Assembly (NCBI RefSeq): GCF_001663815.1 | Contig: NZ_CP016027.1 | Coordinates: forward strand, 186,001-250,000 | Origin: Halothiobacillus diazotrophicus | GTDB taxonomy: Bacteria > Pseudomonadota > Gammaproteobacteria > Halothiobacillales > Halothiobacillaceae | Length of the DNA: 64,000 nucleotides | Direction: 5' to 3' | Shown: in pieces, positions 6,957 to 25,214 of the stretch | How the letters are laid out: the number at the start of each line of letters is the position of its first letter | How positions within the stretch are numbered: position 1 is the stretch's first letter | The notes under the pieces: model-generated | The model's database searches: none | What the model was told of the DNA's origin: nothing | The model's input: the letters and a program-made list of their open reading frames with translations, nothing else | Translations under genes and position numbers: made by a program

Positions 6957-8015
6957 ATGAATCGCCGAATCCTAGCCAGTGCCTTCTTTTTCTATGCCCT
7001 CCTGCATTGCGGTTGGGTGAGTGCAGCAGCAACGGACAACAATGCCCGGCGTATTCCCGTCAAGGTGATGATCGTCACGATGTTCGCGCCGGAGGCCGGG
7101 GCCTGGCTCAAGCATTTCCACGATCCCGTCAAGATCAAGGTGCCGGGCCTGTCCGCGGAATATCCCGCGGTCACCTGCCGCAAGGATGGTGTCTGCCTGA
7201 TGACCACGGGTATGGGTCATACCAATGCGGCGGCCTCGATGATGGCCGTGCTGTTCTCGCCGAAATTCGACCTCCGCGATACCTATTTCCTCGTGGCGGG
7301 TATTGCCGGGATCGATCCGCGGCAGGGAACCCTGGGTACGACGGCCTGGGCGCGATATCTGGTGGATTTCGGAACCCAGTGGGAAATCGATGCCCGGGAG
7401 ATTCCGAAAAACTGGTCCACCGGATTCCTGGGTATCAACACGACGAATCCGGATCAGGTACCCAAACTCGATTACAAGACCGAAGTCTTTGCCCTGAATC
7501 CGCAACTGGTGGATGCCGCCTATGCAATGACCCGAGGCGTCTCATTGCTTGATACGCCTGCGATTGCCGCCTATCGGGCCAAATATCCCTATGCGCCTGC
7601 CAATCAGCCACCCCGGGTGACCCAGTGCGATACCCTCGCGGCGGATACCTGGTGGGAAGGGGATCTGATCGGTCAGCGTGCACGGGACTGGACCAAGATG
7701 CTGACCCACGGAAAAGGGGTGTACTGCACTTCCCAGCAGGAAGACAACGCCACGTTCGAGGCCATTAATCGGGCGGATGCGGCCGGCCTTGCGCACAAGG
7801 ATCGCGTCCTGGTACTGCGCGGGGGATCCGACTTCGATCGACAGCCGCCCGGTGTGTCCGCAGCCGAAAATCTCCTGGACTATCAGAAACAGGGTGGCTT
7901 CGTGCCGGCCCTGGAAAATCTGTACCGCACAGGCGCACCGGTGGTTCAAACAATCGTGCGTCACTGGTCCCTCTGGCAAAAAGGCGTGCCCGCCACGCTG
8001 AAAAAGGCATCCTGA
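6957..8015 (+). CDS. Secreted NUP-family purine nucleoside phosphorylase-like protein 1
   Basis: NUP family ('purine nucleoside permease', PF06516-like), 352 aa, starting with a signal peptide (MNRRILASAFFFYALL, cleavage near SAA-ATD). An in-frame GTG at 6918 is an alternative start but would spoil the signal peptide. The mature part has no transmembrane helix, so a permease role is unlikely. The fold motifs are VKVMIVTMFAPEAG, LMTTGMGHTNAAAS and FLVAGIAGIDP. The putative ribose motif is Q261-E262-D263, where paralogues have Met-Glu-Asp, and the putative base-contact residue is D292 (GGSD), where most paralogues have Asn. It stands alone upstream of the exbBD copy. Confidence 0.8.
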   Translation: MNRRILASAFFFYALLHCGWVSAAATDNNARRIPVKVMIVTMFAPEAGAWLKHFHDPVKIKVPGLSAEYPAVTCRKDGVCLMTTGMGHTNAAASMMAVLFSPKFDLRDTYFLVAGIAGIDPRQGTLGTTAWARYLVDFGTQWEIDAREIPKNWSTGFLGINTTNPDQVPKLDYKTEVFALNPQLVDAAYAMTRGVSLLDTPAIAAYRAKYPYAPANQPPRVTQCDTLAADTWWEGDLIGQRARDWTKMLTHGKGVYCTSQQEDNATFEAINRADAAGLAHKDRVLVLRGGSDFDRQPPGVSAAENLLDYQKQGGFVPALENLYRTGAPVVQTIVRHWSLWQKGVPATLKKAS

Positions 8016-8472
8016 CCGGCCGGTCCGCTTTTGGCGGGCCTCGTGCCTTGGCGGACGTTACATTCCATTCACATCGTCCGTGCTGATGATCGCCGATCGT
8101 CATCTGCTGCAGGGCGCATACCCTCACGGATTCCAGCCTGTTTTCATCTCCTCCTGCGTGAAGCCTTCGGGCGAAATCCATTTTGGATCAGTGACCTGTC
8201 ACGCGAATTCCTGACCAAATCCCGCACCGATTCAATGCACCTGATTGGTGATGTGCTCAACCTCGGTGCCGAATTATCCGGGCTGATTTTGCCGAACTTT
8301 CCATTTCACGCGCCGTTAACCCAATGTTAACAGTGGCTTGCGAATTTCTTGAACAATTGGCCAGTTTTTTGCATTGCTAGATACGACTTCGCGCGCCGGT
8401 CAATTCCGGGCGCTTCAAGCCAGTTTGAACCCGATCAACCGGACCTTTTTTCTCGATTCGTGAGGCTTCGCC
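8016..8472. other. Intergenic region upstream of exbB, mostly repeat
   Basis: 457 bp without a gene. The last 220 bp (from 8253) belong to the inverted repeat shared with the second exbB copy and contain the twin GTTAAC site. The first 237 bp are unique, and I see no coding frame or clear terminator in them. Confidence 0.5.
8315..8331 (+). promoter_or_regulatory. Twin GTTAAC palindromes upstream of exbB copy A
   Basis: GTTAAC at 8315-8320 and 8326-8331 are separated by CCAAT, so the two 6-bp palindromes are 11 bp centre to centre, one helical turn. The site lies about 140 bp before exbB and is conserved in copy B. It is a candidate operator. No regulator can be assigned. Confidence 0.35.
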
Positions 8473-9168
8473 ATGTTGGATTATTTGATTAAGTTGAGTG
8501 TCATGTCCGGCGGTCTGCTGCCGCTGATGGCCCTGCTGCTCCTGATTGCCCTGGCGGTCATCATCGAACGCCTCTATTTCTTCAACTGGGTGATCCGGGC
8601 TGGCCTGGCCATGGAGTACGCCGTGCAGAAGGTGCGCTACGGCGATCGCAAGAGCCTGCAGCAGGTGGCCGACCACTATGCCGGTGCGCCGCAGGCCGTG
8701 GTGCTCTCCGTCGCGCTCAACTCCCGCGGCGAGACGGCCGAGGTGATGGACCGGCATATCGAGGAGTCCATGCTGTGGCAGCTGCCCAAGCTCGACCGCA
8801 TGCTGTGGATCCTCGACACCACCGTGACCTTAGCCCCGCTGCTGGGCCTGTTCGGCACCATCATCGGCATGATCGAGACCTTCGACGTGCTGGGTGATTC
8901 CAAGGATCCCAACGCCGTCACGGGCGGGATCGGCCATGCCCTCATCGCCACCGGCGGCGGTCTGCTCATCGCCATCATCACCGTGGTGTTCCTCAACTAC
9001 TTCAGCAAGCGCGTCCGCCTGACCATGCATCAGATGGAGCTGCTCAAGACCATGGTCATCAACCGCATCCATGGCGGCGGCGTCACCCCGAGCGAGGCCT
9101 ACGGCGCGCAGGCGGCCACGCCCGAGAACCCGCCGATCGGCAGCCAGCCCCAGGCCACCCTGTCCTGA
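8473..9168 (+). CDS. exbB: ExbB-like proton channel protein, copy A
   Basis: Inner-membrane subunit of the TonB energising complex, MotA/TolQ/ExbB family, 231 aa. The first membrane helix is around residues 13-35 (GGLLPLMALLLLIALAVII). The second and third lie in the conserved block LDTTVTLAPLLGLFGTIIGMIETF and GIGHALIATGGGLLIAIITVVFLNYF. The protein is identical to that of copy B at 24519-25214. It is followed after 26 bp by exbD and then by a TonB-dependent receptor, so this copy probably serves that receptor. Confidence 0.95.
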   Translation: MLDYLIKLSVMSGGLLPLMALLLLIALAVIIERLYFFNWVIRAGLAMEYAVQKVRYGDRKSLQQVADHYAGAPQAVVLSVALNSRGETAEVMDRHIEESMLWQLPKLDRMLWILDTTVTLAPLLGLFGTIIGMIETFDVLGDSKDPNAVTGGIGHALIATGGGLLIAIITVVFLNYFSKRVRLTMHQMELLKTMVINRIHGGGVTPSEAYGAQAATPENPPIGSQPQATLS

Positions 9169-9194
9169 GCCGCGGAACGACGAGGTAAACGACC

Positions 9195-9611
9195 ATGGCC
9201 AAGCGATACCACTACCTGGATGCCGAGCGTCCGCGGATCGAGATCATCCCGATGATCGACATCATGATGTTCCTGCTCGTGTTCTTCATCATGGTGACGC
9301 TCAAGATGATTCCCGGCACCGGCGTGCAGCTCAACCTGCCCGGCGCCAGCACCGCAGACAAGCTGCCCACCACCCAGGTCGTCATCGGCGTCGCCGAAGA
9401 CGGTTCCATGCACATCGCCGACCAGACCATGGACAAGGATCAGCTGGCCGCCTACCTGAACAAGATGCACCAGGACAAGACCCAGGAACTCCAGGTCATC
9501 ATCGCCGGAGACAAGCAGGTCTCCCTGCAGAACCTGCTCGCCGTCATGGACGTCGCCCGTGCCCAAGGCATATCCGGCGTCGGCATCGCTACCAGTGAGG
9601 TGAAACAGTGA
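9195..9611 (+). CDS. exbD: ExbD-like protein, copy A
   Basis: Proton-channel partner of ExbB, 138 aa. It has a single N-terminal membrane helix with the conserved acidic residue (IEIIPMIDIMMFLLVFFIM, Asp near residue 22) and a periplasmic domain. It is identical to copy B except for the last residue (Gln here, Lys there). No tonB gene follows. The receptor gene begins 134 bp downstream. Confidence 0.95.
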   Translation: MAKRYHYLDAERPRIEIIPMIDIMMFLLVFFIMVTLKMIPGTGVQLNLPGASTADKLPTTQVVIGVAEDGSMHIADQTMDKDQLAAYLNKMHQDKTQELQVIIAGDKQVSLQNLLAVMDVARAQGISGVGIATSEVKQ

Positions 9612-9625
9612 AACCGAAACATTGA
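9608..9625 (+). pseudogene. Remnant of a tonB start after exbD copy A
   Basis: In copy B the exbD stop overlaps the GTG start of tonB (GTGA). The same GTGA overlap exists here, but the frame reads only five codons (GTG AAA CCG AAA CAT) before TGA. Identity between the copies ends within these bases. The simplest reading is that the duplicated or converted segment stops at the tonB start and that tonB was never copied or was lost here. Confidence 0.5.
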
Positions 9626-9745
9626 ACCCATCGACCGAACCAACGCATGAATCGGCGCATGTCCGGTTCCCGTTTTGACCCTGTTCCTGAACGTCGCGTG
9701 CCTTTCACCACGCACCTGATTAATAGAAAGTACGGAGAGTAGAAA

Positions 9746-12265
9746 ATGATCAAGAAAACGCGTGTCAACCCGTCCGACCGGCAGCGGGGTGAGCTGTTCA
9801 CCCTGACCGTGGGCCGGAAGAAGTGGATTCGTTCCTCCCTGTCGATGATGGTTCTGGCCGGTTCGGTCGCGGTTCCCGGGATTTCCTTCTCGGACGACAT
9901 GGCTGCCAAGCCCGACGACAGCAAGAAGACCCAGAAGCTCGACAAGGTGGTCGTGGAAGGCAAGGTAAAAGATCGCATGGGCATCATGCCGTCCGAACCG
10001 GTGAAGTCCGTATTCGGCTTCGATATGTCGGTCAAGGAAACGCCGCGTTCCGTGACCTCGATCACGAGCGAAATCATGAACGATTTCAACGTGACCGATA
10101 TCAACGACATGGTTGCCCTGAGCCCGGGTGTCTACACCCAGTCGTTCTTCGGCGTGGCCGGCTCCCTGGACGTGCGCGGTACGCCGGGTGAGGTGTATTT
10201 CCGCGGCGTGCGCCGTATCGAAAACCCGGGCAACTACCCGACGCCGATCGGGGCCAGCGACCACATCGACATCGTGCGCGGTCCGGCTTCGCCGATCTAT
10301 GGCCCGTCCCGTATCGGTGGTTACCTGAACTTCGTCCCCAAGTCAGCCCGTTCCGATACCGGTCAGTATATGACCTCGAACAAGGGTCAGATCAGCATGA
10401 CCAAGGGCAGCTACGACGAGAACGTCCTCTCGGCGGAAGTCGGCGGTCCCGGCGAACTGTTCGGCAAGAAGTTCGGTTACTACCTCTATGGACAGAGCGA
10501 GAACAACGGTTCGTACTACCAGAACACCCATACCCGCCAGAACTTGTATCAGGGCTCTGTGAGCATGGATCTGACCCCGAGCTCCCGCGTCGAGTTCGGT
10601 GGCATGTATCAGGATTACAAGGGTAACCAGGTCGCGGGCTGGAACCGCCTGACCCAGGATCTGATCAACAACGGCACCTACATCACCGGTAGCCCGGTCT
10701 CCCTGGATACCAACGGCGATGGTCTGATGTCCGCCGCCGAAATCAAGGCGTACTACAACACGGGCCACACGCTGCAGCCGTTCATCTTCAAGCCGGGCAA
10801 CCTGACTGCTGCCCAGGCCGCGGCGAAGATGGATCCGGCCATGGCACTGCAGAACCCCGGTACCGCCCATCTGGACGGCAGCCAGGTACTGGTTGCGCCG
10901 CCCGACACCCTGCAGGACAAGGTCACCACCCTGTATCTCGATTACATCCACGATCTGGAAGACGGCGGCAGCCTCACCAACAAGATGTACTACGAGAACC
11001 TCGACAACCTGAACGAGAACGCTTACGGCTTCTCCCAGTACGCCAAGACCTGGGCGTTCGAGGATCAGCTGATCTTCGCGAAATCTCTGGATATCACCGA
11101 CAACCTGAAGGGCAGCTACCAGTTCAGCCCGTCCATCCGTTATCAGGACTTCCGTCACGGCGACAACTATGCCTATGAGTTCTTCGATCGTCGGGATCTG
11201 ACCGGCCCGAGCACGCCGATCGATCACCGGACGCTGGCCACAAAGGGACAGGAGCCGTACTCGCATAACACCACCGGTCGATATATCGATTATGGTCTGG
11301 CATTCCTGGCAAACCATACCTTGAACGATTCCCTGCATTTGATGACCGGTCTTCGTTATGACTGGCTGGACGTCAAGTCGACCTGTCTGGCGGGTGGCGT
11401 GAGTTGCGGCAGCATCGCCGGCATCGAGCAGTCCGATACCACCGGGGGTTTCTCCTGGTCTGCGAGTCTGACCTACGACATCCCGCACACCGGTTTGAGC
11501 CCGTATGTGACCGTATCTCGCCAGACGACCCTGATCACGGGGCAGGGTGGGCAGGTGCCGGCGGCCGTCGTGGCCAGTGGCAACAGCATTGCGGGTTCCA
11601 AGTTGAAGGAATTCGGGATCAAGGGTACCTGGTTCGACAACCGCTTGTACGCGGCACTTGATCACTTCGACCAGAGCCGTCTCGACTACAGCGCGCAGGA
11701 TACCGTCACCAACAACACCACCGAGTCCAAGGGCTGGGAGCTGGAGTTGCGCGGCGTTGTCACGAACAACCTGACCGTCACGGGTGCCTGGACCAACCTT
11801 AAGGTGTACAACCTCACGTCGCTGCAGAACGGGACCCAGTTCCAGTTCATCGGTGCGGGTGACATGCCGGCCGGCTTCGATCCGAGCCTGATGTACGGCG
11901 GTGCCGTGCTGGGTATCGTTCCGGCGGGCGACGGCCGCAAGGCGGGTGTGCCGGAGAACATCTACAGCCTGAACTTCCTGTACAACTTCGACAGTGGTCC
12001 GCTGGCCGGTCTGACCAGCAGCCTGAGCCTGATCCGTGTCGACTCGACGTACTCCGGATTCTCGAAGGCCGTCAAGCTGCCGGGCTACACCCTGGTCAAC
12101 CTGGGTGCCGACTACAGCACCAAGAACTGGAAGTTCGGCTTCTACGTCAAGAACGCGACCAACAAGAAGTACTACCGTGCCAACTTCACGGATCTGTTCG
12201 GTTCCAACGTCGTTCTGCCGCAGTTGCCACGTACCTACGAAGCCACCGTTACCTACAAGTTCTGA
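9746..12265 (+). CDS. TonB-dependent outer membrane receptor
   Basis: Outer-membrane active transporter of 839 aa. A long signal peptide (hydrophobic stretch about residues 31-48, cleavage near SFS-DD) is followed by a TonB-box-like DKVVVEGK at about 66-73. A plug domain (SVKETPRSVTSITSEIM to IGGYLNFVPKSARS, about 95-210) leads into a 22-strand type barrel ending in TYEATVTYKF with the C-terminal Phe. A GGAGAG-like ribosome site precedes the ATG. It sits between exbBD and a run of secreted nucleoside-processing enzymes, so a purine nucleoside or related compound is the likely ligand. Sequence alone does not prove the ligand. Confidence 0.92.
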   Translation: MIKKTRVNPSDRQRGELFTLTVGRKKWIRSSLSMMVLAGSVAVPGISFSDDMAAKPDDSKKTQKLDKVVVEGKVKDRMGIMPSEPVKSVFGFDMSVKETPRSVTSITSEIMNDFNVTDINDMVALSPGVYTQSFFGVAGSLDVRGTPGEVYFRGVRRIENPGNYPTPIGASDHIDIVRGPASPIYGPSRIGGYLNFVPKSARSDTGQYMTSNKGQISMTKGSYDENVLSAEVGGPGELFGKKFGYYLYGQSENNGSYYQNTHTRQNLYQGSVSMDLTPSSRVEFGGMYQDYKGNQVAGWNRLTQDLINNGTYITGSPVSLDTNGDGLMSAAEIKAYYNTGHTLQPFIFKPGNLTAAQAAAKMDPAMALQNPGTAHLDGSQVLVAPPDTLQDKVTTLYLDYIHDLEDGGSLTNKMYYENLDNLNENAYGFSQYAKTWAFEDQLIFAKSLDITDNLKGSYQFSPSIRYQDFRHGDNYAYEFFDRRDLTGPSTPIDHRTLATKGQEPYSHNTTGRYIDYGLAFLANHTLNDSLHLMTGLRYDWLDVKSTCLAGGVSCGSIAGIEQSDTTGGFSWSASLTYDIPHTGLSPYVTVSRQTTLITGQGGQVPAAVVASGNSIAGSKLKEFGIKGTWFDNRLYAALDHFDQSRLDYSAQDTVTNNTTESKGWELELRGVVTNNLTVTGAWTNLKVYNLTSLQNGTQFQFIGAGDMPAGFDPSLMYGGAVLGIVPAGDGRKAGVPENIYSLNFLYNFDSGPLAGLTSSLSLIRVDSTYSGFSKAVKLPGYTLVNLGADYSTKNWKFGFYVKNATNKKYYRANFTDLFGSNVVLPQLPRTYEATVTYKF

Positions 12266-12273
12266 TGCGCTTC

Positions 12274-12308: not shown

Positions 12309-12357
12309 CGATGGGTATTCATGACGCAACCTAATGCATTCATCGAGAGTAAAAATC

Positions 12358-13479
12358 ATGTTTCAACGCACCCAAAAATGGCTGCCCGCCCTGCTGCTAA
12401 CGTGGGGGATGGGGGTCATCTGCAGTTCCGTTCAGGCGGAGCCGGCGGAACCGCAGATGGTCAGTGCTGCCGCGCACAAGCCGATCGAGGTCAAGGTCGT
12501 GGTGGTCACGATGTTCGAGATCGGCAAGGACAGCGGCGATCAGGCCGGCGAATTCCAACTCTGGCATGAGCGGCAGCATCTGAACGAGCGGTTCAAGTTC
12601 GCCCATCATCATGACCTCTTCTTCAACCCGAAAACCGGTGTGCTCGGCATGGTTACGGGGATGGGCACCGCCAATTCCGCCAGTGCGGTGATGGAGCTCG
12701 GTATGGATCCGCGCTTTGATCTATCTCACGCCTACTGGCTGGTGGCGGGGATTGCGGGGTTCGACCCGGCCAAAGCTTCCATCGGTTCGGCGGCCTGGGC
12801 CGAGTACCTCGTGGATGGCGACCTGGCCTACGAGATTGATGCCCGGGAAATTCCAAAAGGCTGGTCGACCGGCTATTTCGCCCGCGGGACGAAAAAGCCC
12901 TACGACCCGAATCGTCCCGCGCCAACCGGCGAGATGTTCCAACTGGATCCGAAGCTGACGGATTGGGCCTACGAGCTCACCCGGAACGTGAAGCTGGACG
13001 ACAGTCCCGTGCTGCAGAAGCGCCGCTCGCTCTACACCAATTATCCCAATGCCCGGAAGCCACCCTTCGTGCTGAAGGGCGACAATCTCGCCGCCATGAC
13101 GTTCTGGCACGGCAAGTTGCTCAACGAATGGGCCGAGCGCTGGGTGAAGTACTGGACGAACGGCAAGGGCAATTTCGTCTCCTCGGCCATGGAGGATACC
13201 GGCACCTACCAGTCGCTGAGCTATCTCAGCGAGACCGGCAAGGTCGACAAGAACCGCGTCATGGTGCTGCGGACGGCCAGCAACTACACCATGCCGCCGC
13301 CGGGCGTGACGGCGGTGGACGATCTGCTGCAGGATCACGAGGGCTACGCCGGGCTCGATGCCTCGGTCGAGGCCGCCTACCGGGTGGGTTCGAAGGTGGT
13401 GGATACCCTGGTCGATCATTGGGATATCTACCGGGATCATACACCCGCCCAGATGGCGGGTGCGGACAAGGCGGAGTAG
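12358..13479 (+). CDS. Secreted NUP-family protein 2
   Basis: NUP-family, 373 aa, from the ATG at 12358 (GAGAG upstream) with a signal peptide ending near SVQA-EP. It resembles the nucleoside phosphorylase fold: VKVVVVTMFEIGKDSGD, GMVTGMGTANSAS, WLVAGIAGFDP and AAMTFWHG. The putative ribose-binding Met-Glu-Asp is M278-E279-D280 and the putative base-contact Asn is N309 in RTASNY. It is 7 bp upstream of the next paralogue and clearly co-transcribed with it. A periplasmic phosphorolysis or hydrolysis of purine nucleosides is the best guess; family members are little characterised in bacteria. Confidence 0.82.
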   Translation: MFQRTQKWLPALLLTWGMGVICSSVQAEPAEPQMVSAAAHKPIEVKVVVVTMFEIGKDSGDQAGEFQLWHERQHLNERFKFAHHHDLFFNPKTGVLGMVTGMGTANSASAVMELGMDPRFDLSHAYWLVAGIAGFDPAKASIGSAAWAEYLVDGDLAYEIDAREIPKGWSTGYFARGTKKPYDPNRPAPTGEMFQLDPKLTDWAYELTRNVKLDDSPVLQKRRSLYTNYPNARKPPFVLKGDNLAAMTFWHGKLLNEWAERWVKYWTNGKGNFVSSAMEDTGTYQSLSYLSETGKVDKNRVMVLRTASNYTMPPPGVTAVDDLLQDHEGYAGLDASVEAAYRVGSKVVDTLVDHWDIYRDHTPAQMAGADKAE

Positions 13480-13486
13480 GGCGATC

Positions 13487-14587
13487 ATGCGCATGCCCCG
13501 ATCTCGATGGACACAACGCCTGGTGACATGGCTTCTGGTCGCTGGTGCGGCCTGCGGAGTGACCAGTGGCGCCAGTCATTCCGCCTGGGCCGGCAACCCC
13601 ATCGTCAACCGGCCGACTCCGGTCAAGGTGGTCGTGGTCAGCATGTTCGAGATCGGCAAGCCGACCGGCGATGCGCCCGGGGAATACCAGTTCTGGGTGG
13701 AACGGCAGAAGCTCGATCGGGTGTATCCGTTTCCCCTGGGCGAATACGATCTGCGCATGAACGACCAGGGCCTGCTCGGCATCTGCACGGGCGGCGGCAT
13801 CACCAATGCCACGGCGTCGATCATGGCCCTGGGCATGGATCCCCGGTTCGATCTCTCCAAGGCCTACTGGGTGATCGCGGGCATCGCCGGCGGGGATCCC
13901 GAGGACGTTTCCCTCGGCACCGCGGCCTGGGCGCGCCATGTGGTGGACGGCGATCTGCTCTACGAGATCGATGCACGCGAGATTCCCAAATCCTGGCCCT
14001 ACGGATTGCTGCCGCTGGGTGCGAAAGCCCCCAACGACAAGGCCACCGGCTGGACCGTCGACACCATTCATTTCCCGCTCAATGCCAAGCTGGCCGAATG
14101 GGCCTACGACCAAACCAAGGATCATCCCGTGGCGGACAGCCCAGGCATCGCCGATTTCCGCAAGCTGTACGTCGGTTATCCGAACGCGCAGCGACCACCC
14201 TTCGTCACGATGGGGGACGATCTGTCCGCCAGTACCTACTGGCACGGGGAAAAGCTGAATCAGTGGGCCAACGACTGGATGCATCTGCAGGCCGGGAAGG
14301 ACAGCAATTTCATGATGGCCGACATGGAGGACAGCGGTACGTTGACGGCGCTGCGGCGCTTGGCGCGTACCCATCGGGTCGACCTCAATCGGGTGATGGT
14401 GCTGCGTACCGCGAGCAACTACAGCATGCCGCCCAAAGGCAAACCCGCCGCCTGGAGTACGACGGCACCGTATCCCGAGCAGGGCCGTCCCGCGCTGGAA
14501 GCCGCCTATCAGGTAGGCAACCGGGTCGTGCAGAAACTCATCGCCGGCTGGTCCGTGTATCGCGACCGTCTGCCGAGCCAACCGTAA
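13487..14587 (+). CDS. Secreted NUP-family protein 3
   Basis: 366 aa with signal peptide (cleavage near SAWA-GN). It is the closest relative of NUP 2 in this window: VKVVVVSMFEIGKPTGDAPGE, TGGGITNAT, WVIAGIAGGDP and STYWHG. The ribose motif is M280-E281-D282 and the base-contact Asn is N311 (RTASNYSMP). The gene starts 7 bp after NUP 2 with AGGGCG as ribosome site, and the next paralogue follows 13 bp after its stop. The tandem order suggests local duplication and divergence. Confidence 0.82.
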   Translation: MRMPRSRWTQRLVTWLLVAGAACGVTSGASHSAWAGNPIVNRPTPVKVVVVSMFEIGKPTGDAPGEYQFWVERQKLDRVYPFPLGEYDLRMNDQGLLGICTGGGITNATASIMALGMDPRFDLSKAYWVIAGIAGGDPEDVSLGTAAWARHVVDGDLLYEIDAREIPKSWPYGLLPLGAKAPNDKATGWTVDTIHFPLNAKLAEWAYDQTKDHPVADSPGIADFRKLYVGYPNAQRPPFVTMGDDLSASTYWHGEKLNQWANDWMHLQAGKDSNFMMADMEDSGTLTALRRLARTHRVDLNRVMVLRTASNYSMPPKGKPAAWSTTAPYPEQGRPALEAAYQVGNRVVQKLIAGWSVYRDRLPSQP

Positions 14588-14600
14588 TCGGAGAACGTCC

Positions 14601-15686
14601 ATGCGCCAAGCGCTCGTCGTGTTGATGACCGTTCTTCTCGGGGCATCGCCAGTCTATGCCGAAGACAAGATCGCGCCGAAGGTCATCGTGCTGGCCGGTT
14701 TCGAGGTCGGCGACGATACCGGCGATGCGCCCGGTGAGTTCCAGTACTGGGCCGAACGCGAAAAACTCACCGGGACATTGGTGGTACCGGGAGCGCCGCA
14801 TCCGCTTCGATTCAACGCGGATGGGCTCTACGGCAGCGTGGCCGGCAATACGCGGGACAAGTTTCTGTCCACGGTGCCCGCCAGCGAATTGATCATGGCG
14901 CTGTGTCTGGATCCCTGTCTGGATTTGCGCAAAACGTACTGGATTATCACCGGTATCGCCGGGATCGATCCCAAGGCGGGTTCTATCGGTAGCGCCGTCT
15001 GGGCGAAGAACGTCGTGGATGCCGATGCGATGCGGGAGATCGGCGGGGCGGATATTCCCAAGGGCTGGCCCTACGGTCTGTTCGCGATCGGTACGATGGG
15101 GCCGAACCAGTTGCCCAAGACCCATGCGGATGCCGGCGGTTGGGGCGGCGCCACGCTCAGCTATTCGATGAATTATCCCCTGAATGCGGGGCTGGCCGAC
15201 TGGGCCTACGACTATTCGAAGTCGCGAGTGACGCTCAAGGATGCGGCGGATCTGAAAGCCTGGCGGGACAAGTACAGCGGCTATACCCAGGCGCAGAAAC
15301 CGCCGGAAATCCTGATGGGCGCCACCCTGGCCACGGCCCGCTACTGGCATGGGCCGGAACGGACGCAATGGGCACGCGATTGGGTCAAGCTCTGGACCGA
15401 CGGCAAGGATCATTTCGCCACCACCGCCATGGAGCAGGCCGCCTATGTCGGCACCCTGCAACGTATGGCGAAGCAGGGCTATGTGGATTTCAGCCGGGTC
15501 ATGATGTTGCGGGGCGCCAGCAACTACTGCATGCCGCCGCCGGGTCAGAGCGTGCTGACCACGATCGGTGACGAGTCTCTGGGCACGAAGCCAGCCTTCG
15601 AGGCGGAATACCGCGCGGGTTCGGTGGTGGCGCATGAACTCATCGCGCATTGGGATCGCTACAAGACAACGCCGCCGGGTCGCTAG
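14601..15686 (+). CDS. Secreted NUP-family protein 4 (divergent)
   Basis: 361 aa with a clear signal peptide (LVVLMTVLLGASPVYA-ED). It shares the NUP framework (PKVIVLAGFEVGDDTGDAPGE, WIITGIAGIDP, TARYWHG, RGASNY with N308). It departs from it in the stretch normally giving TGMGxxN (here VAGNTRDKF) and in the ribose motif, which is M277-E278-Q279. It also carries extra cysteines (LCLDPCLDL). Altered substrate preference is likely. Whether it is still catalytic cannot be told from sequence alone. Confidence 0.78.
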   Translation: MRQALVVLMTVLLGASPVYAEDKIAPKVIVLAGFEVGDDTGDAPGEFQYWAEREKLTGTLVVPGAPHPLRFNADGLYGSVAGNTRDKFLSTVPASELIMALCLDPCLDLRKTYWIITGIAGIDPKAGSIGSAVWAKNVVDADAMREIGGADIPKGWPYGLFAIGTMGPNQLPKTHADAGGWGGATLSYSMNYPLNAGLADWAYDYSKSRVTLKDAADLKAWRDKYSGYTQAQKPPEILMGATLATARYWHGPERTQWARDWVKLWTDGKDHFATTAMEQAAYVGTLQRMAKQGYVDFSRVMMLRGASNYCMPPPGQSVLTTIGDESLGTKPAFEAEYRAGSVVAHELIAHWDRYKTTPPGR

Positions 15687-15769
15687 AGGGCGCATCCCGT
15701 CGCGCCGAAGCCTGGCTGCAAGCCAGTGGGCCCGAAAGGTCGTTATGAAGTATTTGAGGAGTGCCTGTC

Positions 15770-16612: not shown

Positions 16613-16667
16613 TTCGTGACGAATCCTGCCGAAGCCAAGATTCAGTCGTTATTTGAGGAGTTTTCCG

Positions 16668-18204: not shown

Positions 18205-19101
18205 ATGAACGATCAAGGTCAACAAAATCAGGGATATGGCATTCGGTCCAGGGGGCTGGTCGGGCTGATGCTGGCCATGGTGTCGGTGTTTTCGCCGCCA
18301 CTGCTTGCCGCTCCGACCCAGTCCTCGACGGCGGAGGACCGTGTCCAGACGCTGATCGATTCGCTGGGATTGCAACACCTGAATGCGGAGTCGGGCATGT
18401 ATTCGGTCGCGCGCGTCTCGGATCTCCAGGTCACCGCATCGGATGGCCAATCGCCAGCCAGCAATGCGATCTATTTCATGCTGACGCCCAAATATCGCGT
18501 CAATTACCTGCATTGGCTGTATTCCGACGACTACCAGACCCTGATCGAGGGAGGACCGGCCGATTACTACCTGTTCTATGCCGATGGTCACGTCGCCAAG
18601 TACACCATGGGACGCGATCTGGCGAAGGGACAGGTGCTCATGGTCCCCTGTCCGGCGGGTACCGCCAAGGCCATCGTGCTGCACAAGGAGGCGAAGTACC
18701 TGCTGGTCAGTTCCGTGCTGTCGCCGGCCTGGAGTCCACAGCGCGCACGCATCGGAGCCGACTACGCCTTCCTCAAGAAGTATGGGAGCAAGGCCGACTG
18801 GGCGACACCGGGGTTTCTGACGTTCCTGATCGGACCGAATTTCGCCCATACGATCGGTGCGGACAACAAGGGGTTTTCGCTGGACGTTGACGGCAACGAG
18901 CAACTGCTCTGGAAAGGCATGCAGCTCTCGGAGAAGCAGGTGCGCGTGGAACTGAAGAAGATGGCGGCTGCCGATCCGAATCGCGTCCTGACGATTACGT
19001 TTCTGGGCGAGGCTGCCCGCGCCGTGGCGATGAAGATGCAACGGATAGCGCATGAAATCGGGGTTCGTCAGGTGAAGATCCTGCCGGCCCACGATCATTG
19101 A
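18205..19101 (+). CDS. Secreted cupin_5 (DUF985-like) protein with ExbD-like C-terminal domain
   Basis: 298 aa with a signal peptide or N-terminal anchor (hydrophobic residues about 18-36). Residues about 45-190 follow the DUF985/cupin_5 pattern: a helix LIDSLGLQ, then SNAIYFMLTP, the HW-SDD block, YYLFYADG, and LLVSSVLSPAW. Residues about 222-295 (LDVDGNEQLL, KQVRVELKKM, AVAMKMQRIAHEIGV) align well by eye with the periplasmic domain of the ExbD encoded here. Function is unknown. It may touch the TonB machinery or be a small-molecule binding protein. It starts 17 bp after the deaminase stop in the same operon. Confidence 0.6.
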   Translation: MNDQGQQNQGYGIRSRGLVGLMLAMVSVFSPPLLAAPTQSSTAEDRVQTLIDSLGLQHLNAESGMYSVARVSDLQVTASDGQSPASNAIYFMLTPKYRVNYLHWLYSDDYQTLIEGGPADYYLFYADGHVAKYTMGRDLAKGQVLMVPCPAGTAKAIVLHKEAKYLLVSSVLSPAWSPQRARIGADYAFLKKYGSKADWATPGFLTFLIGPNFAHTIGADNKGFSLDVDGNEQLLWKGMQLSEKQVRVELKKMAAADPNRVLTITFLGEAARAVAMKMQRIAHEIGVRQVKILPAHDH

Positions 19102-19175
19102 GCGGCATTGACCATCAGGCGTGCATACCAAATGAATTCGTGCACTGGGGCGCTGATTGTGGAGTGTGATGAGTG

Positions 19176-20327
19176 ATGAATAGGCGAGTCTTGTTGCGTG
19201 GATTGATCCTGGTGGTCAGTGTCTGGCTGGCAACGGCCCAGGCTGAGGGGCTGGCTTCGGATCAGAAATCCGATTCGGCCATGGATCCGACCTTAAATCC
19301 GACCAAGGTCCCGCTGCGACCCAAGCTGGTCGTGGTGACCTATTTCGAGATCGGCAAGGATACGGGCGACAAGCCCGGCGAACTGCAGCACTGGGTGACG
19401 CGGGATCACCTCGATCGGGTGATTCCGGTGCCCGGCATGACGCATCCCGTGCGCGCCAATGCCGACGGCAGCGAGATCGCCGTGGTCGTCGGGCCCGGCC
19501 AGATCCGACCGGCAGTCAATCTCATGGCGTTGGGCCATGATGCCCGGTTCGATCTGCGCCAGAGCTACTGGCTGATCAACGGTATCGCCGGCGTGTCGCC
19601 GAACGATGGCACGATGGGCGCGGCCTTCTGGACGGATTACGTGGTGAACGGCGATCTGCTGCATCTGATCGATCCCCGGGAAATGCCCAAGGATTGGCCG
19701 GATGGCTATTACGCCATCGACAAGACCCGACCGGGGGAGGAACCGCGCGTGCCGGCCGGTTCTCCCGAAGACGTACGTACCTGGCCCAAGGACCAGGCGC
19801 ACCTCAACAGCCGGGGCACCGTTATCCAGCTCAATCCGAAATTGTTGCACTGGGCCTACGGGCTGACCAAGGGAATTTCCCTGCCACAGGATGCGGCGAT
19901 GAAGGCGGTGGATGCGGAATACACCGGTTTTCCGCTGGCGCAGCAGACGCCGAAAGTGGCCATCGGCGCCAATATCGCTTCGGAAACCTTCTGGCACGGT
20001 CGACTGATGGATGAATGGGCGCATCGCTGGGTGGCCTATGAAACCGATGGCAAGGCCCGACTGGGCACCACGGCCATGAACGATTCCGGTGCGCTGCTGG
20101 CCCTGTATTCCCTGACCCAGTCCGGCCTGGCCGACTGGAATCGGGCACTCCTGCTGCGGACGGCCAGCAATTTTGACGCGCAACCCCCGGGCATGACGGC
20201 GGAACAGAGCGCCAACGGCGAGCAGCACGGCGCGTACACCGGGTATGACGCCTCCCTGGAGTCGGCCTATCTCGTCGGCAGTCGGGTCGGCAAGGCGATC
20301 CTGGCCGGCAAGGCGCCGACGCCATGA
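19176..20327 (+). CDS. Secreted NUP-family protein 5 (altered active-site motif)
   Basis: 383 aa with signal peptide (VSVWLATAQA-EG). The NUP framework is kept (PKLVVVTYFEIGKDTGDKPGE, WLINGIAGVSP, SETFWHG, RTASNF with N332). The putative ribose motif is M301-N302-D303, so the Glu thought to hold the ribose hydroxyls is lost. The glycine-rich stretch is VVVGPGQIRPA instead of TGMG. It also has an insertion of about 25 residues around GEEPRVPAGSPEDV. It may bind rather than cleave its ligand, or act on a different sugar. It is the last NUP gene of the operon. Confidence 0.78.
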   Translation: MNRRVLLRGLILVVSVWLATAQAEGLASDQKSDSAMDPTLNPTKVPLRPKLVVVTYFEIGKDTGDKPGELQHWVTRDHLDRVIPVPGMTHPVRANADGSEIAVVVGPGQIRPAVNLMALGHDARFDLRQSYWLINGIAGVSPNDGTMGAAFWTDYVVNGDLLHLIDPREMPKDWPDGYYAIDKTRPGEEPRVPAGSPEDVRTWPKDQAHLNSRGTVIQLNPKLLHWAYGLTKGISLPQDAAMKAVDAEYTGFPLAQQTPKVAIGANIASETFWHGRLMDEWAHRWVAYETDGKARLGTTAMNDSGALLALYSLTQSGLADWNRALLLRTASNFDAQPPGMTAEQSANGEQHGAYTGYDASLESAYLVGSRVGKAILAGKAPTP

Positions 20328-20450: not shown

Positions 20451-21554
20451 ATGTCATTGATCAGGAATCCAGTATTGCGTATGCCCAACCCGTCCGGACG
20501 GCTCCGGTCGGCCCCGCGCCGTGTGATGACCTCCGTTGCAATGATGGCGCTGGTCGCGGCAGGGTGGCTGGGGGTGCCGCAGATCGCAGCGGCAGCGCCC
20601 GACATGACCTACCATCCACAGCCCCGTCTGGGCATTCTGGTCCCCATCGGTCCGCCGGACTACAGCGTGCTGATGTCGCAGTTCGTGAAGGAAAAGACGC
20701 TCAAATACGGACCGTTCACGTACTTCGTGGGCACCCTCAAGCAGGTGCCGACCGTCATCTGCATCCAGCCCTTCGGCGGGCCGGTCACCCGCGCGATGTC
20801 GGCCCAGGCGATGCTCACGCATTTCAATATCAAGGCCCTGATCTATCCGGGTACCTCGGGTGCGCATCTCGAGGCGGATCAGATGGTGATTGGCGATGTG
20901 GTGCTGGGTGCCAAGCACGTGAATTTCGCCAACTTCTTCATGACGAAAGCGGGCGATCTGATTCCCGACGAGTTCACTGCCGAGAGTGCGATGGGGCGCT
21001 TCAACATGCTGTATGCCAACCCGACCCTGCTGCACTATCTGGCCTGCTCGGCGACGGAGGTCGCCGCCAAGGCGAAAATGCCGGACTGGGTGAATCCCGG
21101 CGTGACGCAAGCGCATCCCAAGATCTTCTATTACGGGATTCAGGGTACTTCGACCATGTGGCTGGCGAACAAGGCGTTCATCCACAAGACCCATCAGGTC
21201 TTCCACGAGCTGGACGAGGATGGCGACTGGTTCTCCGCGGTCGTGGCGGCCATGTACGACGTGCCCTTCATCGAGGTCAGCACGATATCGGACAGCATTT
21301 TCGAATTTCCCGATACCGAGCGGGGCATTCCGGTGCCGCCCAAGTCGACCGACCCGGGGGTTCATGTGAAGAACGCCTCCGTACTGGCCCAGGACATGAG
21401 TAATCGGATTGCCGTGGCCCTGATCGGGCGCTATGGCGAAAAGATCCTCAAGGGGCATTACCCGACACCGGAAACCTCGCCGGTTCCCGATGCCTGGTAT
21501 GCCGACGCGGCCAATCCGCGAGACCTGCTCAAAGGCAAGGATTGCCTGCCCTGA
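20451..21554 (+). CDS. Secreted purine nucleoside phosphorylase-like protein
   Basis: 367 aa of the PNP_UDP superfamily but not of the NUP family. A long n-region and hydrophobic stretch (about residues 26-48) form a signal peptide ending near AAA-APD. PRLGILVPIGPPDYSVLM and LIYPGTSGAHLEADQMVIGDVV carry the fold, and D281 in STISDS matches the catalytic Asp of hexameric PNP and MTAN. The usual Met-Glu pair is replaced by ELDEDGDW. It is the last gene before a terminator. The Asp suggests it can act on 6-aminopurine nucleosides, unlike the Asn-bearing relatives. Confidence 0.75.
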   Translation: MSLIRNPVLRMPNPSGRLRSAPRRVMTSVAMMALVAAGWLGVPQIAAAAPDMTYHPQPRLGILVPIGPPDYSVLMSQFVKEKTLKYGPFTYFVGTLKQVPTVICIQPFGGPVTRAMSAQAMLTHFNIKALIYPGTSGAHLEADQMVIGDVVLGAKHVNFANFFMTKAGDLIPDEFTAESAMGRFNMLYANPTLLHYLACSATEVAAKAKMPDWVNPGVTQAHPKIFYYGIQGTSTMWLANKAFIHKTHQVFHELDEDGDWFSAVVAAMYDVPFIEVSTISDSIFEFPDTERGIPVPPKSTDPGVHVKNASVLAQDMSNRIAVALIGRYGEKILKGHYPTPETSPVPDAWYADAANPRDLLKGKDCLP

Positions 21555-21714: not shown

Positions 21715-21742
21715 GCCGGGGTCAAAGTACCCCGGCTTTTTT
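21715..21742 (+). terminator. Rho-independent terminator of the + strand operon
   Basis: GCCGGGG (21715-21721) and CCCCGGC (21730-21736) form a perfect 7-bp GC stem with an 8-base loop followed by TTTTTT. It closes the long + strand operon. The stop codon of the convergent deaminase lies in the loop. Confidence 0.88.
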
Positions 21743-23131
21743 CAGCATGGTTCTGCTGGACCGGTTATGACGCTTGACCAGCATGTCAACGTCGAGCCCA
21801 ACGACCTGATGATCCTCGACCACGATCCGTCCGTTGATCAGTGAAAACCAGGCGCGCGCCGGTGCACAGGTGACGAGGGCGGCAACCGGATCCCCCAGGG
21901 CACCGGCATGGCCCAGATCGTCGATGCGGAAGGCGACAATATCCGCAGCCTTGCCGACTTCCAGACTGCCGATGTCGTCGCGCTGCAGCACCCGTGCGCC
22001 ACCGAGCGTAGCCAGTTCCAGCGCTTCCCGGGCGGAAAATCGGTCGGCGCGGGATTCGAAGCCGGGCCAGCCGACGCGCTGCAGCAGCATCGCCTGTCGC
22101 GCTTCGCCCAGCATGTGGTTGCCGTCGTTGCTGGCCGAGCCGTCCACGCCCAGGCCGACCCGCACCCCCAGATCCACCATCCGACGCACCGGCGCGATGC
22201 CGGAAGCGAGAATCATGTTGCTGCTCGGGCAATGACAGACCCCGGAGCAATGATGGGCCATTCGCTGAATTTCCGGTTCCGTCGGGTGCACCATGTGCGC
22301 GAACCAGACGTCCGCGCCCATCCACTCCACCGACTCGGCGTATTCCAGCGGACGCATGCCGAATTGTTCGAGGCAGAAACGATCCTCATCCAGGGTTTCG
22401 GCCAGATGGGTGTGCAGCCCGACGCGGCGGTAGCTTCGGGCTAGCCGCGCGCTTTCGCGCATGAGGTCGCCGGTGACGCTGAACGGGGAGCAGGGGGCGA
22501 GACCGATCCGAACCATGGCGAGCGGTTCCGGGTCGTGAAAGGTTTCGATGACCCGCTGGCTGTCCTCGAGAATGGCCGCTTCGGATTCGACCACGCGATC
22601 CGGGGGAAGGCCGCCCTGGCTTTCGCCGAGGCTCATGCTGCCGCGGGTCGGATGAAAACGCACCCCCAGTTCCTGCGCGGCAGCAATCTCGTCATCGAGT
22701 CGAATGCCGTTGGGAAAGAGATAAAGATGATCGGCGACGGTGGTGGCGCCGGACAGCAGCAATTCGGCGAGGCCAACCTGTGTGCTGGTATAGATGGCCT
22801 CGGGATCCATTTCTGCCCATATGGGGTAGAGCATCTTCAGCCAATCGAAGAGTACCTTGCCTTCCCCGGTGCCGATGGTGCGGGTCAGGGTCTGGTAGAG
22901 ATGATGATGGCAATTGACGAGGCCCGGCGTGACGACACAGCCCTGAGCATCGAGGATTCGGTCCGGTTGGCGGTTGCCGGGATCCTGCTGGATCCAGAGC
23001 AGCATTCGGGCGGCGGAATCGATGTGGACGATCCGTGAATCGACGACGAGGAGGCTGGCATGGGGCAACTCCTCGCGGTCGGCATTCATGGTGACCAGAA
23101 CGTCGGCATTATGGATGAGGATTCGATTCAT
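21722..23131 (-). CDS. 8-oxoguanine deaminase / guanine deaminase-type amidohydrolase
   Basis: Cytoplasmic amidohydrolase of 469 aa. Metal ligands are in NCHHHLYQTLTR (H75, H77), THLAET, and GLGVDGSASND. The block TRGSMSLGESQGGLPPD is characteristic of 8-oxoguanine deaminases (8-oxoguanine to urate), which also act on related purines. The start at 23131 is the first Met giving the usual family opening. It is the last gene of the exbB-exbD-tonB operon on this strand. 8-oxoguanine deamination yields urate directly, so it feeds the allantoin branch without xanthine dehydrogenase. Confidence 0.85.
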   Translation of the reverse strand: MNRILIHNADVLVTMNADREELPHASLLVVDSRIVHIDSAARMLLWIQQDPGNRQPDRILDAQGCVVTPGLVNCHHHLYQTLTRTIGTGEGKVLFDWLKMLYPIWAEMDPEAIYTSTQVGLAELLLSGATTVADHLYLFPNGIRLDDEIAAAQELGVRFHPTRGSMSLGESQGGLPPDRVVESEAAILEDSQRVIETFHDPEPLAMVRIGLAPCSPFSVTGDLMRESARLARSYRRVGLHTHLAETLDEDRFCLEQFGMRPLEYAESVEWMGADVWFAHMVHPTEPEIQRMAHHCSGVCHCPSSNMILASGIAPVRRMVDLGVRVGLGVDGSASNDGNHMLGEARQAMLLQRVGWPGFESRADRFSAREALELATLGGARVLQRDDIGSLEVGKAADIVAFRIDDLGHAGALGDPVAALVTCAPARAWFSLINGRIVVEDHQVVGLDVDMLVKRHNRSSRTMLKKAGVL

Positions 23132-23180
23132 GCGGGCTTCTTGGGTTGAGGCGGTTATCTGCTGTGGTGCCGCCCCGCGC

Positions 23181-23197
23181 GGGAGCCTGTGGCTCCC
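23181..23197 (-). other. Hairpin between tonB and the deaminase gene
   Basis: GGGAGCC-TGT-GGCTCCC forms a perfect 7-bp stem with a 3-base loop in the 99-bp spacer. No T-run follows on the minus strand, so read-through into the deaminase is likely. It may set the ratio of tonB to deaminase mRNA. Confidence 0.4.
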
Positions 23198-23230
23198 CGG
23201 CTTACGAACACGCACCTTGGGCCGGTTCCG

Positions 23231-24079
23231 TTACTGATCGCTCAGCTTGAACTGGATCACCTGTTCCACCTGACCATCAACCGCCTTGCCGTCTACCATC
23301 TTGGGCTTGAACTCCCAGTGCTTGACCGCATCCACGGCAGCGCGATCGAACAGGCGTGGCGGGTTCGATTCGATGACGGTCACGTGGTCGACATGTCCGT
23401 CGGCCGTGACGGTGAACCGGAGCTTGACCCAGCCTTCGATACCGGCGTTCAAGGCACGTCGCGGATAGTCCGGCTTCACGCGGCTGACGCTTTTCGCTTC
23501 GCTGCTCGCACCGGCTTGCGCGGGTTTGGGTGGTGCCGGTTCGGCGGGCTTGGGCGGTGCCGGTGGCGCCTTCTCGGCCACGGGTTTCGGGGGTGGCGTC
23601 GGTTTTGGCGGTTCCTTGGGCGGCTCTACCTTTTTCGGCTTGGGCTTATGCGGCTTCGGCTTCTCGTGATGAACCGGCTTTGGCTTGGGCGGCTCCTGAA
23701 TCGGCGATTTCGGTAGCGGCTTGGGCGGCTCGGTCTTGATCGGATCCGGCTTTGGCGGTGGCGTCGGCTCAGGCGGCGGTGGCGGCGGTGGCGGCACCGG
23801 CTCCGGTGGTGGCGGGGGTTCCGGGGGCGGGGGCTCCACGGGCTTGGGCGGCGTGGGTGCCGGCATGGACATGGGGATGAATTCGGTGACCTGGGTGATT
23901 TTCTCCGGTGCTTTCTTGTGTTGGGTCGACACATAGGCGATGCCGGCGATCAGCGCTGCTTCGATCACCAAGGCCACCATGATCGCCTTGGGCAAGGAGA
24001 GGCGCCGTTCCTTGGGAATGCTGAAATCCAGCGCGATGGGCGAGGAAACGGTTTCCGCCCGACTCATCGTGGGTTTCAC
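23231..24079 (-). CDS. tonB: TonB protein with long proline-rich spacer
   Basis: Links inner-membrane energy to outer-membrane receptors. 282 aa, GTG start at 24079 overlapping the exbD stop and preceded by GAGGTG; an ATG at 24067 has no ribosome site. One membrane helix lies at about residues 33-50. A spacer of about 120 residues, mainly Pro, Lys and Glu, spans the periplasm. The C-terminal domain (VKPDYPRRALNAGIEGWVKLRFTV, VIESNPPRLFDRAAVDAVKHWEF) is a standard TonB C-terminus. It is the only tonB in the window and presumably serves both receptors. Confidence 0.95.
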   Translation of the reverse strand: MKPTMSRAETVSSPIALDFSIPKERRLSLPKAIMVALVIEAALIAGIAYVSTQHKKAPEKITQVTEFIPMSMPAPTPPKPVEPPPPEPPPPPEPVPPPPPPPPEPTPPPKPDPIKTEPPKPLPKSPIQEPPKPKPVHHEKPKPHKPKPKKVEPPKEPPKPTPPPKPVAEKAPPAPPKPAEPAPPKPAQAGASSEAKSVSRVKPDYPRRALNAGIEGWVKLRFTVTADGHVDHVTVIESNPPRLFDRAAVDAVKHWEFKPKMVDGKAVDGQVEQVIQFKLSDQ

Positions 24080-24492
24080 TTTTTCACCTCACTGGTAGCG
24101 ATGCCGACGCCGGAGATGCCCTGAGCGCGGGCGACGTCCATGACGGCGAGCAGGTTCTGCAGGGAGACCTGCTTGTCGCCGGCGATGATGACCTGGAGTT
24201 CCTGGGTCTTGTCCTGGTGCATCTTGTTCAGGTAGGCGGCCAGCTGATCCTTGTCCATGGTCTGGTCGGCGATGTGCATGGAACCGTCTTCGGCGACGCC
24301 GATGACGACCTGGGTGGTGGGCAGCTTGTCTGCGGTGCTGGCGCCGGGGAGGTTGAGCTGCACGCCGGTGCCGGGAATCATCTTGAGCGTCACCATGATG
24401 AAGAACACGAGCAGGAACATCATGATGTCGATCATCGGGATGATCTCGATCCGCGGACGCTCGGCATCCAGGTAGTGATATCGCTTGGCCAT
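24076..24492 (-). CDS. exbD: ExbD-like protein, copy B
   Basis: 138 aa, identical to copy A except for the C-terminal Lys. It has a single membrane helix with the conserved Asp and a periplasmic domain. Its stop overlaps the GTG of tonB, giving a coupled exbB-exbD-tonB operon. The third-position differences from copy A cluster in the last 60 bases and the first codons of the gene. Confidence 0.95.
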   Translation of the reverse strand: MAKRYHYLDAERPRIEIIPMIDIMMFLLVFFIMVTLKMIPGTGVQLNLPGASTADKLPTTQVVIGVAEDGSMHIADQTMDKDQLAAYLNKMHQDKTQELQVIIAGDKQVSLQNLLAVMDVARAQGISGVGIATSEVKK

Positions 24493-24518
24493 GGTGGGTT
24501 ACCTCGTCGTTCCGCGGC

Positions 24519-25214
24519 TCAGGACAGGGTGGCCTGGGGCTGGCTGCCGATGGGCGGGTTCTCGGGCGTGGCCGCCTGCGCGCCGTAGGCCTCGCTCGGG
24601 GTGACGCCGCCGCCATGGATGCGGTTGATGACCATGGTCTTGAGCAGCTCCATCTGATGCATGGTCAGGCGGACGCGCTTGCTGAAGTAGTTGAGGAACA
24701 CCACGGTGATGATGGCGATGAGCAGACCGCCGCCGGTGGCGATGAGGGCATGGCCGATCCCGCCCGTGACGGCGTTGGGATCCTTGGAATCACCCAGCAC
24801 GTCGAAGGTCTCGATCATGCCGATGATGGTGCCGAACAGGCCCAGCAGCGGGGCTAAGGTCACGGTGGTGTCGAGGATCCACAGCATGCGGTCGAGCTTG
24901 GGCAGCTGCCACAGCATGGACTCCTCGATATGCCGGTCCATCACCTCGGCCGTCTCGCCGCGGGAGTTGAGCGCGACGGAGAGCACCACGGCCTGCGGCG
25001 CACCGGCATAGTGGTCGGCCACCTGCTGCAGGCTCTTGCGATCGCCGTAGCGCACCTTCTGCACGGCGTACTCCATGGCCAGGCCAGCCCGGATCACCCA
25101 GTTGAAGAAATAGAGGCGTTCGATGATGACCGCCAGGGCAATCAGGAGCAGCAGGGCCATCAGCGGCAGCAGACCGCCGGACATGACACTCAACTTAATC
25201 AAATAATCCAACAT
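24519..25214 (-). CDS. exbB: ExbB-like proton channel protein, copy B
   Basis: 231 aa, identical in sequence to copy A. It is the first gene of the operon exbB-exbD-tonB-8-oxoguanine deaminase. Its 220-bp leader is also shared with copy A, so both operons probably respond to the same signals. Confidence 0.95.
   Translation of the reverse strand: MLDYLIKLSVMSGGLLPLMALLLLIALAVIIERLYFFNWVIRAGLAMEYAVQKVRYGDRKSLQQVADHYAGAPQAVVLSVALNSRGETAEVMDRHIEESMLWQLPKLDRMLWILDTTVTLAPLLGLFGTIIGMIETFDVLGDSKDPNAVTGGIGHALIATGGGLLIAIITVVFLNYFSKRVRLTMHQMELLKTMVINRIHGGGVTPSEAYGAQAATPENPPIGSQPQATLS

Follow-up and report, generated by a model that had tools for sequence, protein, structure and literature searches.

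A candidate purine-nucleoside scavenging island with secreted enzymes, a TonB-dependent receptor and linked ExbBD-TonB genes in Halothiobacillus diazotrophicus

We analysed a 64,000-nt stretch of the Halothiobacillus diazotrophicus genome (contig NZ_CP016027.1, positions 186,001 to 250,000; hereafter the window, in whose coordinates features are given) that holds, at 6957-25214, a locus combining a TonB-dependent receptor (TBDR), genes for ExbB, ExbD and TonB, and a series of nucleoside-acting proteins. Genes were called with Pfam and NCBIfam profiles on the window's proteins. On the plus strand, NUP1 (6957-8015; PF06516, 426 bits) is followed by a run with no internal gap above 134 bp: exbB1 (8473-9168; PF01618), exbD1 (9195-9611; PF02472), the TBDR (9746-12265; PF07715 plug and PF00593 barrel), NUP2 (12334-13479; PF06516, 397 bits), NUP3 (13487-14587; PF06516), NUP4 (14601-15686; PF06516), PNP1 (15761-16612; NF004079/TIGR01704), a secreted adenosine deaminase resembling ADGF/ADA2 (16653-18188; PF00962, TIGR01431), a secreted Cupin_5 (DUF985) protein (18205-19101; PF06172), NUP5 (19173-20327; PF06516) and PNP2 (20451-21554), a secreted, divergent PNP_UDP_1 protein (PF01048, 44 bits). 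Converging on this run from the minus strand are exbB2 (24519-25214; PF01618), exbD2 (24076-24492; PF02472), tonB (23231-24079; PF03544) and a cytoplasmic 8-oxoguanine deaminase gene (21722-23215; NF006055, 648 bits, cut-off 532). A terminator-like hairpin (21715-21736, plus strand) lies where the two sets meet, with no enrichment over shuffled sequence, and is weak evidence for a terminator. All five NUPs, members of the 'purine nucleoside permease' family, pass the PF06516 gathering score of 27 bits by a wide span (289-426 bits each), and a profile search found them to be every NUP of the 2.9-Mb genome. The inventory given by the initial annotation (TBDR, two exbBD copies, tonB, five NUPs, two proteins of the PNP/MTAN fold, an adenosine deaminase and an 8-oxoguanine deaminase) was thus recovered gene for gene. 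To that inventory the present analysis adds the Cupin_5 gene, the repeat relation of the two exbBD copies, the larger island to which the locus belongs and an operon with a second TBDR just beyond it.

The two exbBD copies form the arms of a 1363-bp inverted repeat (left arm 8253-9615, plus strand; right arm 24072-25434, minus strand), which blastn and a base-by-base comparison found to be 99.0% identical, with 14 mismatches. The repeat takes in about 220 bp upstream of exbB, so that both converging gene sets begin with the same DNA followed by exbBD, and we therefore read them as sharing one regulatory region; a promoter scan of the locus gave fewer matches than shuffled sequence and no recognisable promoter. 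The arms flank about 14.5 kb, and homologous recombination between them would flip this stretch, the TBDR operon and the tonB end included. It could be a natural inversion, or just the product of recent gene conversion.

The association of this receptor with NUP recurs widely. A scan of one genome per species found at least 565 NUP-encoding stretches, of which the best 80 were taken with their flanks; these were chosen by similarity to NUP2 and are thus a biased sample, drawn from Nevskiaceae, Cellvibrio, Alteromonadales, Halomonadaceae, Sphingomonadales, Hyphomonadaceae and others. Of the 80 loci, 66 contain a relative of the window TBDR. Where a TBDR could be compared beside an intact NUP (63 loci), it is 41-59% identical in all cases except one, and in 47 of these it lies less than 300 bp from NUP on the same strand. 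The other recurrent neighbours are ADGF-like deaminases, NCS2 base permeases, xanthine dehydrogenase (Xdh), allantoin genes and 8-oxoguanine deaminase (in 30 loci, with at least 44% identity), to which sphingomonad loci add a secreted nucleoside hydrolase and a regulator of the LysR family. A less biased check, on 399 Pseudomonadota genomes, found NUP in 26 (one being a weak match below the cut-off) and a strong TBDR orthologue in six, five of which also encode NUP; with the home genome removed, four of five TBDR genomes have NUP (hypergeometric p = 6e-5), and in three of these four the two genes are 148-176 bp apart. The sixth TBDR genome (G372) has no NUP and carries an NCS2-permease match beside the receptor. 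The TBDR-NUP system is therefore not special to this organism.

Ton genes within the cluster are another matter. NUP together with a TonB receptor and ExbBD, a combination for which the initial annotation had suggested a gene-neighbourhood search, occurs in four of the 80 loci (L019, L020, L021 and L028; about 5.0-10.0 kb), each with a non-orthologous Ton set between TBDR and NUP, which in L019 was read as DUF3450, two ExbB-type proteins, ExbD, TonB and a TPR protein. Since these sets differ, in-cluster Ton genes must have arisen more than once, yet they are exceptional. The earlier description of the locus as powered by 'its own' TonB-ExbBD accordingly stands as far as physical linkage, position in the island described below and dissimilarity to the exbBD of relatives are concerned, and is weakened by the rarity of such linkage and by further TonB- and ExbB-like proteins elsewhere in the genome.

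The TBDR itself is modelled as a plug and barrel (pTM 0.81) and has a TonB-box-like LDKVVVEG near its N-terminus. Its nearest relatives in sequence and in fold are siderophore receptors, although its score against TIGR01783 (127.8 bits) falls well short of the curated cut-off of 223.5. This resemblance would suit a system for iron or another siderophore that came to lie beside purine genes by chance, were it not that the TBDR family adjoins NUP in 47 of 79 loci, across Gamma- and Alphaproteobacteria, that the two co-occur at genome level, and that the island and the recurrent neighbours examined yielded no recognisable siderophore, FecI/FecR or iron-ABC gene; we regard such a chance juxtaposition as highly improbable. 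The gene context instead points to a purine nucleoside as the probable ligand, and the structure was not used for this assignment. A closer competitor holds that the TBDR imports some other purine-derived or purine-linked compound (a nucleotide or oligonucleotide fragment, a free base such as xanthine or urate, an 8-oxo-purine, or a modified nucleoside, for example a cytokinin riboside), which the periplasmic enzymes then process. TBDR ligands are usually larger or rarer than the substrates of porins, the G372 orthologue sits beside a base permease match in a genome without NUP, 8-oxoguanine deaminase is a common neighbour, and an operon with a secreted RNase T2, PhoD and a second receptor (TBDR2) lies next door, all of which would fit. 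The conserved adjoining enzymes are nucleoside enzymes, however, and none of the 80 NUP loci has a relative of this PhoD or RNase T2; we consider this explanation unlikely.

The initial annotation had stated that almost every enzyme here has a signal peptide. This holds for every nucleoside-acting protein of the locus except the 8-oxoguanine deaminase. Signal peptides were called across 81 loci by a simple heuristic test with controls (not SignalP), which also scores membrane proteins such as ExbB. N-terminal signals were found in 99 of 104 NUPs, 42 of 43 ADGF-like deaminases, six of seven PNP1 proteins, all six cupins and all 19 secreted nucleoside hydrolases, compared with two of 32 cytoplasmic adenosine deaminases and none of 15 phosphoribosyltransferases, so that the contrast between secreted-type proteins and cytoplasmic controls is large. 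Among 8-oxoguanine deaminase-like proteins, six of 50 have a signal. The adenosine deaminase of the locus is, by sequence, most like the secreted ADGF/ADA2 group and probably works as that type does: its zinc and catalytic motifs (HxH, HAGE, GHG and TDD) are conserved in an alignment of 42 sequences, and its 109 bits against TIGR01431, under the cut-off of 315, place it outside the family as filed, as a divergent relative. The Cupin_5 protein stands beside NUP in six loci (L011, L012 and L016 among them), each time with a signal peptide, and may act on the released sugar or at some other step.

The NUPs are the most numerous of the secreted proteins, and their predicted structure does not look like that of a permease. 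A model of NUP2 (AlphaFold2 on a 58-sequence alignment; pLDDT 91) is globular and has no membrane-spanning segment beyond the signal peptide. In a Foldseek search of the PDB, its top matches are methylthioadenosine/S-adenosylhomocysteine (MTA/SAH) nucleosidases (MTANs) and the related futalosine hydrolases (against MTANs, E 1e-11 and target-normalised TM 0.65-0.76), which places it in the alpha/beta fold of the NP-I superfamily; the second-best match is the E. coli MTAN Asp197Asn mutant 1z5o. The sequence barely reveals this fold: NUP1 matches futalosine hydrolase at E = 3e-6, and a sequence search of the PDB for NUP relatives gave no match. Across 98 NUPs, the positions of NUP2 Glu73, Met286-Glu287, Arg313 and Ser316-Asn317 are nearly invariant. 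In the model, Glu73 precedes the first helix of the mature domain, Met286-Glu287 lie at a strand end and Ser316-Asn317 end the last core strand; from this order and position, we take Glu73, Met286-Glu287 and Asn317 to be the probable counterparts of the MTAN general acid Glu12, the ribose-binding Met173-Glu174 and the base-contact Asp197, respectively. The assignment rests on fold and motif position because a profile-profile comparison of NUP with PNP1 shows almost no sequence similarity. Trimeric purine nucleoside phosphorylases (PNPs) specific for 6-oxopurines carry Asn at the position of MTAN Asp197. We read the NUPs as putative secreted nucleosidases of 6-oxopurine nucleosides, and the predicted soluble fold argues against a permease role. 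A secreted adenosine deaminase acting ahead of 6-oxopurine nucleosidases also makes sense biochemically.

Not all of the paralogues share this set of residues. NUP1 keeps an Asp at the position of NUP2 Asn317, and NUP5, possibly a binding protein, has Asn at the position of the ribose-contact Glu287. PNP1, a predicted MTAN-like nucleosidase that aligns to MTANs, has Asn in place of the catalytic Asp (N251), a change present in all six orthologues. Recent tandem duplication of the five NUPs was considered and ruled out: in a tree of 102 NUPs they fall into five separate clades, and so look like specialised paralogues, not fresh copies. On a side note, relatives of NUP occur on large plasmids of Azospirillum, Burkholderia, Mycetohabitans, Microvirga and haloarchaea, and the family reaches archaea, organisms without an outer membrane.

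The family name stems from the NUP of Candida albicans (CaNUP), to which yeast complementation ascribed a transport role: adenine-requiring yeast expressing it grows on adenosine, which was taken as transport, and yeast expressing a CNT is sensitive to the adenosine analogue toyocamycin while yeast expressing CaNUP is not (PMC9431476). Cleavage of adenosine to adenine outside the cell would explain both results, because extracellular cleavage combined with an uncleavable analogue would give growth on adenosine as well as resistance; this is our reinterpretation and not that of the authors of PMC9431476. CaNUP gave PF06516 its name and shares the family with the NUPs described here; it is eukaryotic and assigned as a transporter, whereas NUP2 has a predicted soluble, enzyme-like fold and a signal peptide. 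One could still suppose that the bacterial NUPs are periplasmic purine-nucleoside-binding proteins that pass nucleosides, uncleaved, to a BMP/ABC or other importer. The family name and the yeast data lean that way, as do the missing ribose-contact Glu of NUP5, the Asn of PNP1 and the five divergent paralogues, which would fit different ligands. Yet the near invariance of Glu73, Glu287 and Arg313 goes beyond what binding needs, MTAN-superfamily proteins with such a pocket are enzymes, and a BMP gene was detected in only six of the 80 NUP loci, where base permeases are common. A purely binding role thus appears doubtful, and cleavage remains the reading we prefer.

This locus makes up the right-hand half of a larger island. 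Reading 20 kb upstream of the window (L114) places the island, about 37.4 kb long, from about L114:8456 to about window 25848 (window part 1-25848); it starts about 11.5 kb upstream of the window, just 3' of a tRNA-Met gene (L114:8328-8404). From the tRNA, the minus strand encodes PuuD urate hydroxylase, guanine deaminase, HIU hydrolase, OHCU decarboxylase and XdhC-XdhB-XdhA, and the plus strand then encodes the ATPase and permeases of an ABC importer (L114:17092 to window 744), PuuE allantoinase (1572-2501; TIGR03212, 538 bits, cut-off 424.6), allantoicase (2578-3594; TIGR02961, 433 bits; PF03561) and ureidoglycolate lyase (3591-4079; PF04115). On the minus strand follow a cytoplasmic adenosine deaminase without signal peptide (4122-5249; NF006850, 471 bits), in which homology begins at residue 45 and the true start is probably internal, near 5117, and the BMP/PnrA-type nucleoside-binding protein of the ABC importer (5287-6366; PF02608, 212 bits). 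The BMP/ABC importer and allantoin degradation genes earlier noted as neighbours are thus part of the same island, whose predicted enzymes together form a complete pathway that leads from purine nucleosides to glyoxylate and urea.

In the congener G005, the genes of the gltX side and those of the WYL-RNase T2-PhoD-TBDR2 side neighbour each other in the same order, about 290 bp apart; G005 therefore represents the empty site, from which the extent of the island follows. No NUP was found in nine congeners or 16 further family members, in which the best ExbB relatives are at most 41% identical; related genes for Xdh, BMP and adenosine deaminase do occur in two congeners (G007 and G009), both of which lack NUP. 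We also considered whether exbBD-tonB is simply the ordinary set of the relatives, which is ruled out by this low identity and by its absence at the empty site. We infer horizontal acquisition of the island from its distribution, because no other signature is at hand: G+C content does not stand out, no integrase was recognised in the island, and the longest word shared as a direct repeat between its ends is 10 bases.

Taken together, the island is probably a horizontally acquired module for purine-nucleoside scavenging and catabolism, with two uptake routes and a periplasmic enzyme stage. In the first route, purine nucleosides would bind the TBDR and be pumped into the periplasm with energy presumably supplied by the island's ExbBD-TonB; the secreted ADGF-like deaminase would convert adenosine to inosine, and the secreted NUPs and PNP1 would split inosine, guanosine or xanthosine to base and sugar. 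In the second, the BMP/ABC importer would bring intact nucleosides to the cytoplasmic adenosine deaminase. The bases would then be broken down in the cytoplasm to glyoxylate and urea by guanine and 8-oxoguanine deaminases, XdhABC, PuuD, HIU hydrolase, OHCU decarboxylase, PuuE, allantoicase and ureidoglycolate lyase. The original proposal of periplasmic nucleoside scavenging is therefore borne out in so far as this is a purine locus with an outer-membrane receptor and a periplasmic enzyme stage, as judged from the island pathway, the recurrent clusters, the signal peptides and the conserved residues; a nucleoside as the ligand, its cleavage by the NUPs, the order of the steps and the pairing of this TonB with the receptor are putative parts of the scheme.

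Several observations weigh against this proposal. Molecules the size of nucleosides can pass through porins, and E. coli takes them up by way of the Tsx channel. The receptor's closest kin are siderophore receptors, and the genome has other TonB- and ExbB-like proteins. The two almost identical exbBD pairs could have arisen by accidental copying. The island has no recognised NCS2 base permease, and so offers no obvious carrier for the freed bases, and its G+C content is unremarkable. As regards the enzymes, NUP and PNP1 have almost no profile similarity, and the Asp-to-Asn change abolishes activity in MTAN itself, so that NUP and PNP1 may have lost catalysis. Finally, 20 of the 26 NUP genomes have no such TBDR and one more has only distant TBDR matches; other NUP clades must therefore work without it, and the link belongs to the NUP2 clade. 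The broader claim, that Gamma- and Alphaproteobacteria have an undescribed TonB receptor family for purine nucleosides or close derivatives and, at the same time, that the 'purine nucleoside permeases' are an undescribed family of secreted nucleosidases, seems to us evenly poised.

The arrangement has partial precedents. PUL- and CUT-type (polysaccharide- and carbohydrate-utilization) loci of Bacteroidetes and Xanthomonas combine a TonB-dependent transporter, periplasmic glycoside hydrolases, an inner-membrane transporter and a regulator. As in those loci, an outer-membrane TonB transporter is clustered here with catabolic genes and with secreted hydrolases that would complete substrate breakdown in the periplasm, and the TBDR is kept beside secreted degradative enzymes and catabolic genes across taxa. 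The differences lie in the probable substrate class (purine nucleosides), in the enzymes (nucleosidases and deaminases) and in the Ton genes that are sometimes in the cluster. In E. coli, nucleosidases, phosphorylases and deaminases are cytoplasmic. The E. coli route through Tsx and NupC/NupG likewise brings nucleosides across the outer membrane for catabolism; unlike the system proposed here, it relies on a porin and on cytoplasmic enzymes. The periplasmic MTA/SAH nucleosidase of Aeromonas hydrophila (PDB 5b7p and 5b7q) is a secreted protein of the MTAN fold, which the NUP2 model matches; it is a stand-alone enzyme going by the PDB titles, and we know of no TBDR cluster for it. The BMP/PnrA ABC nucleoside importer with cytoplasmic purine degradation is present in the same island, and G007 and G009 have such genes without NUP.

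The initial annotation knew of no described system of this make-up. We found no description of a TBDR-NUP system in the literature searched, which left most subscription journals outside its coverage, and in a 2024 review of TonB substrates nucleosides come up solely in connection with Tsx, a nucleoside-specific porin, while purines and nucleobases do not come up at all (PMC11658791). Loci that pair a TBDR with periplasmic hydrolases are a known kind; a purine-nucleoside version of them and an enzyme role of NUP appear to be undescribed in that literature. If our proposal is correct, purine nucleosides would join the few compounds listed as TonB substrates, purine catabolism would take its first steps in the periplasm, and a sizeable family now annotated as transporters would gain an enzymatic function. 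As COG5042, this family has been counted among the dissolved-organic-carbon transporters of ocean bacteria (PMC2847192). Many waters and soils contain dissolved nucleosides that serve as a source of nitrogen.

Beyond the island, the minus strand at 27107-31672 encodes TBDR2, a secreted RNase T2 and a PhoD-like phosphatase whose signal is of the Tat type, adjoining a WYL regulator. This operon is kept in G005 (70-90% identical) without the purine island, and PhoD and RNase T2 are ruled out as island members, as they flank the empty site there. It looks like a system for RNA or nucleotide scavenging that could feed nucleosides to the island. In the congener G007 (L127 = G007:C8:150001-170000, 926-7442), PhoD-RNase T2 are found with a divergent TBDR and with relatives of ExbB and ExbD, which suggests that the cluster for RNA scavenging, too, can come with Ton components of its own. 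Further along, the minus strand at 52353-54467 holds a 704-aa frame that joins an erythromycin-esterase domain to a protein-L-isoaspartate methyltransferase (PCMT) domain.

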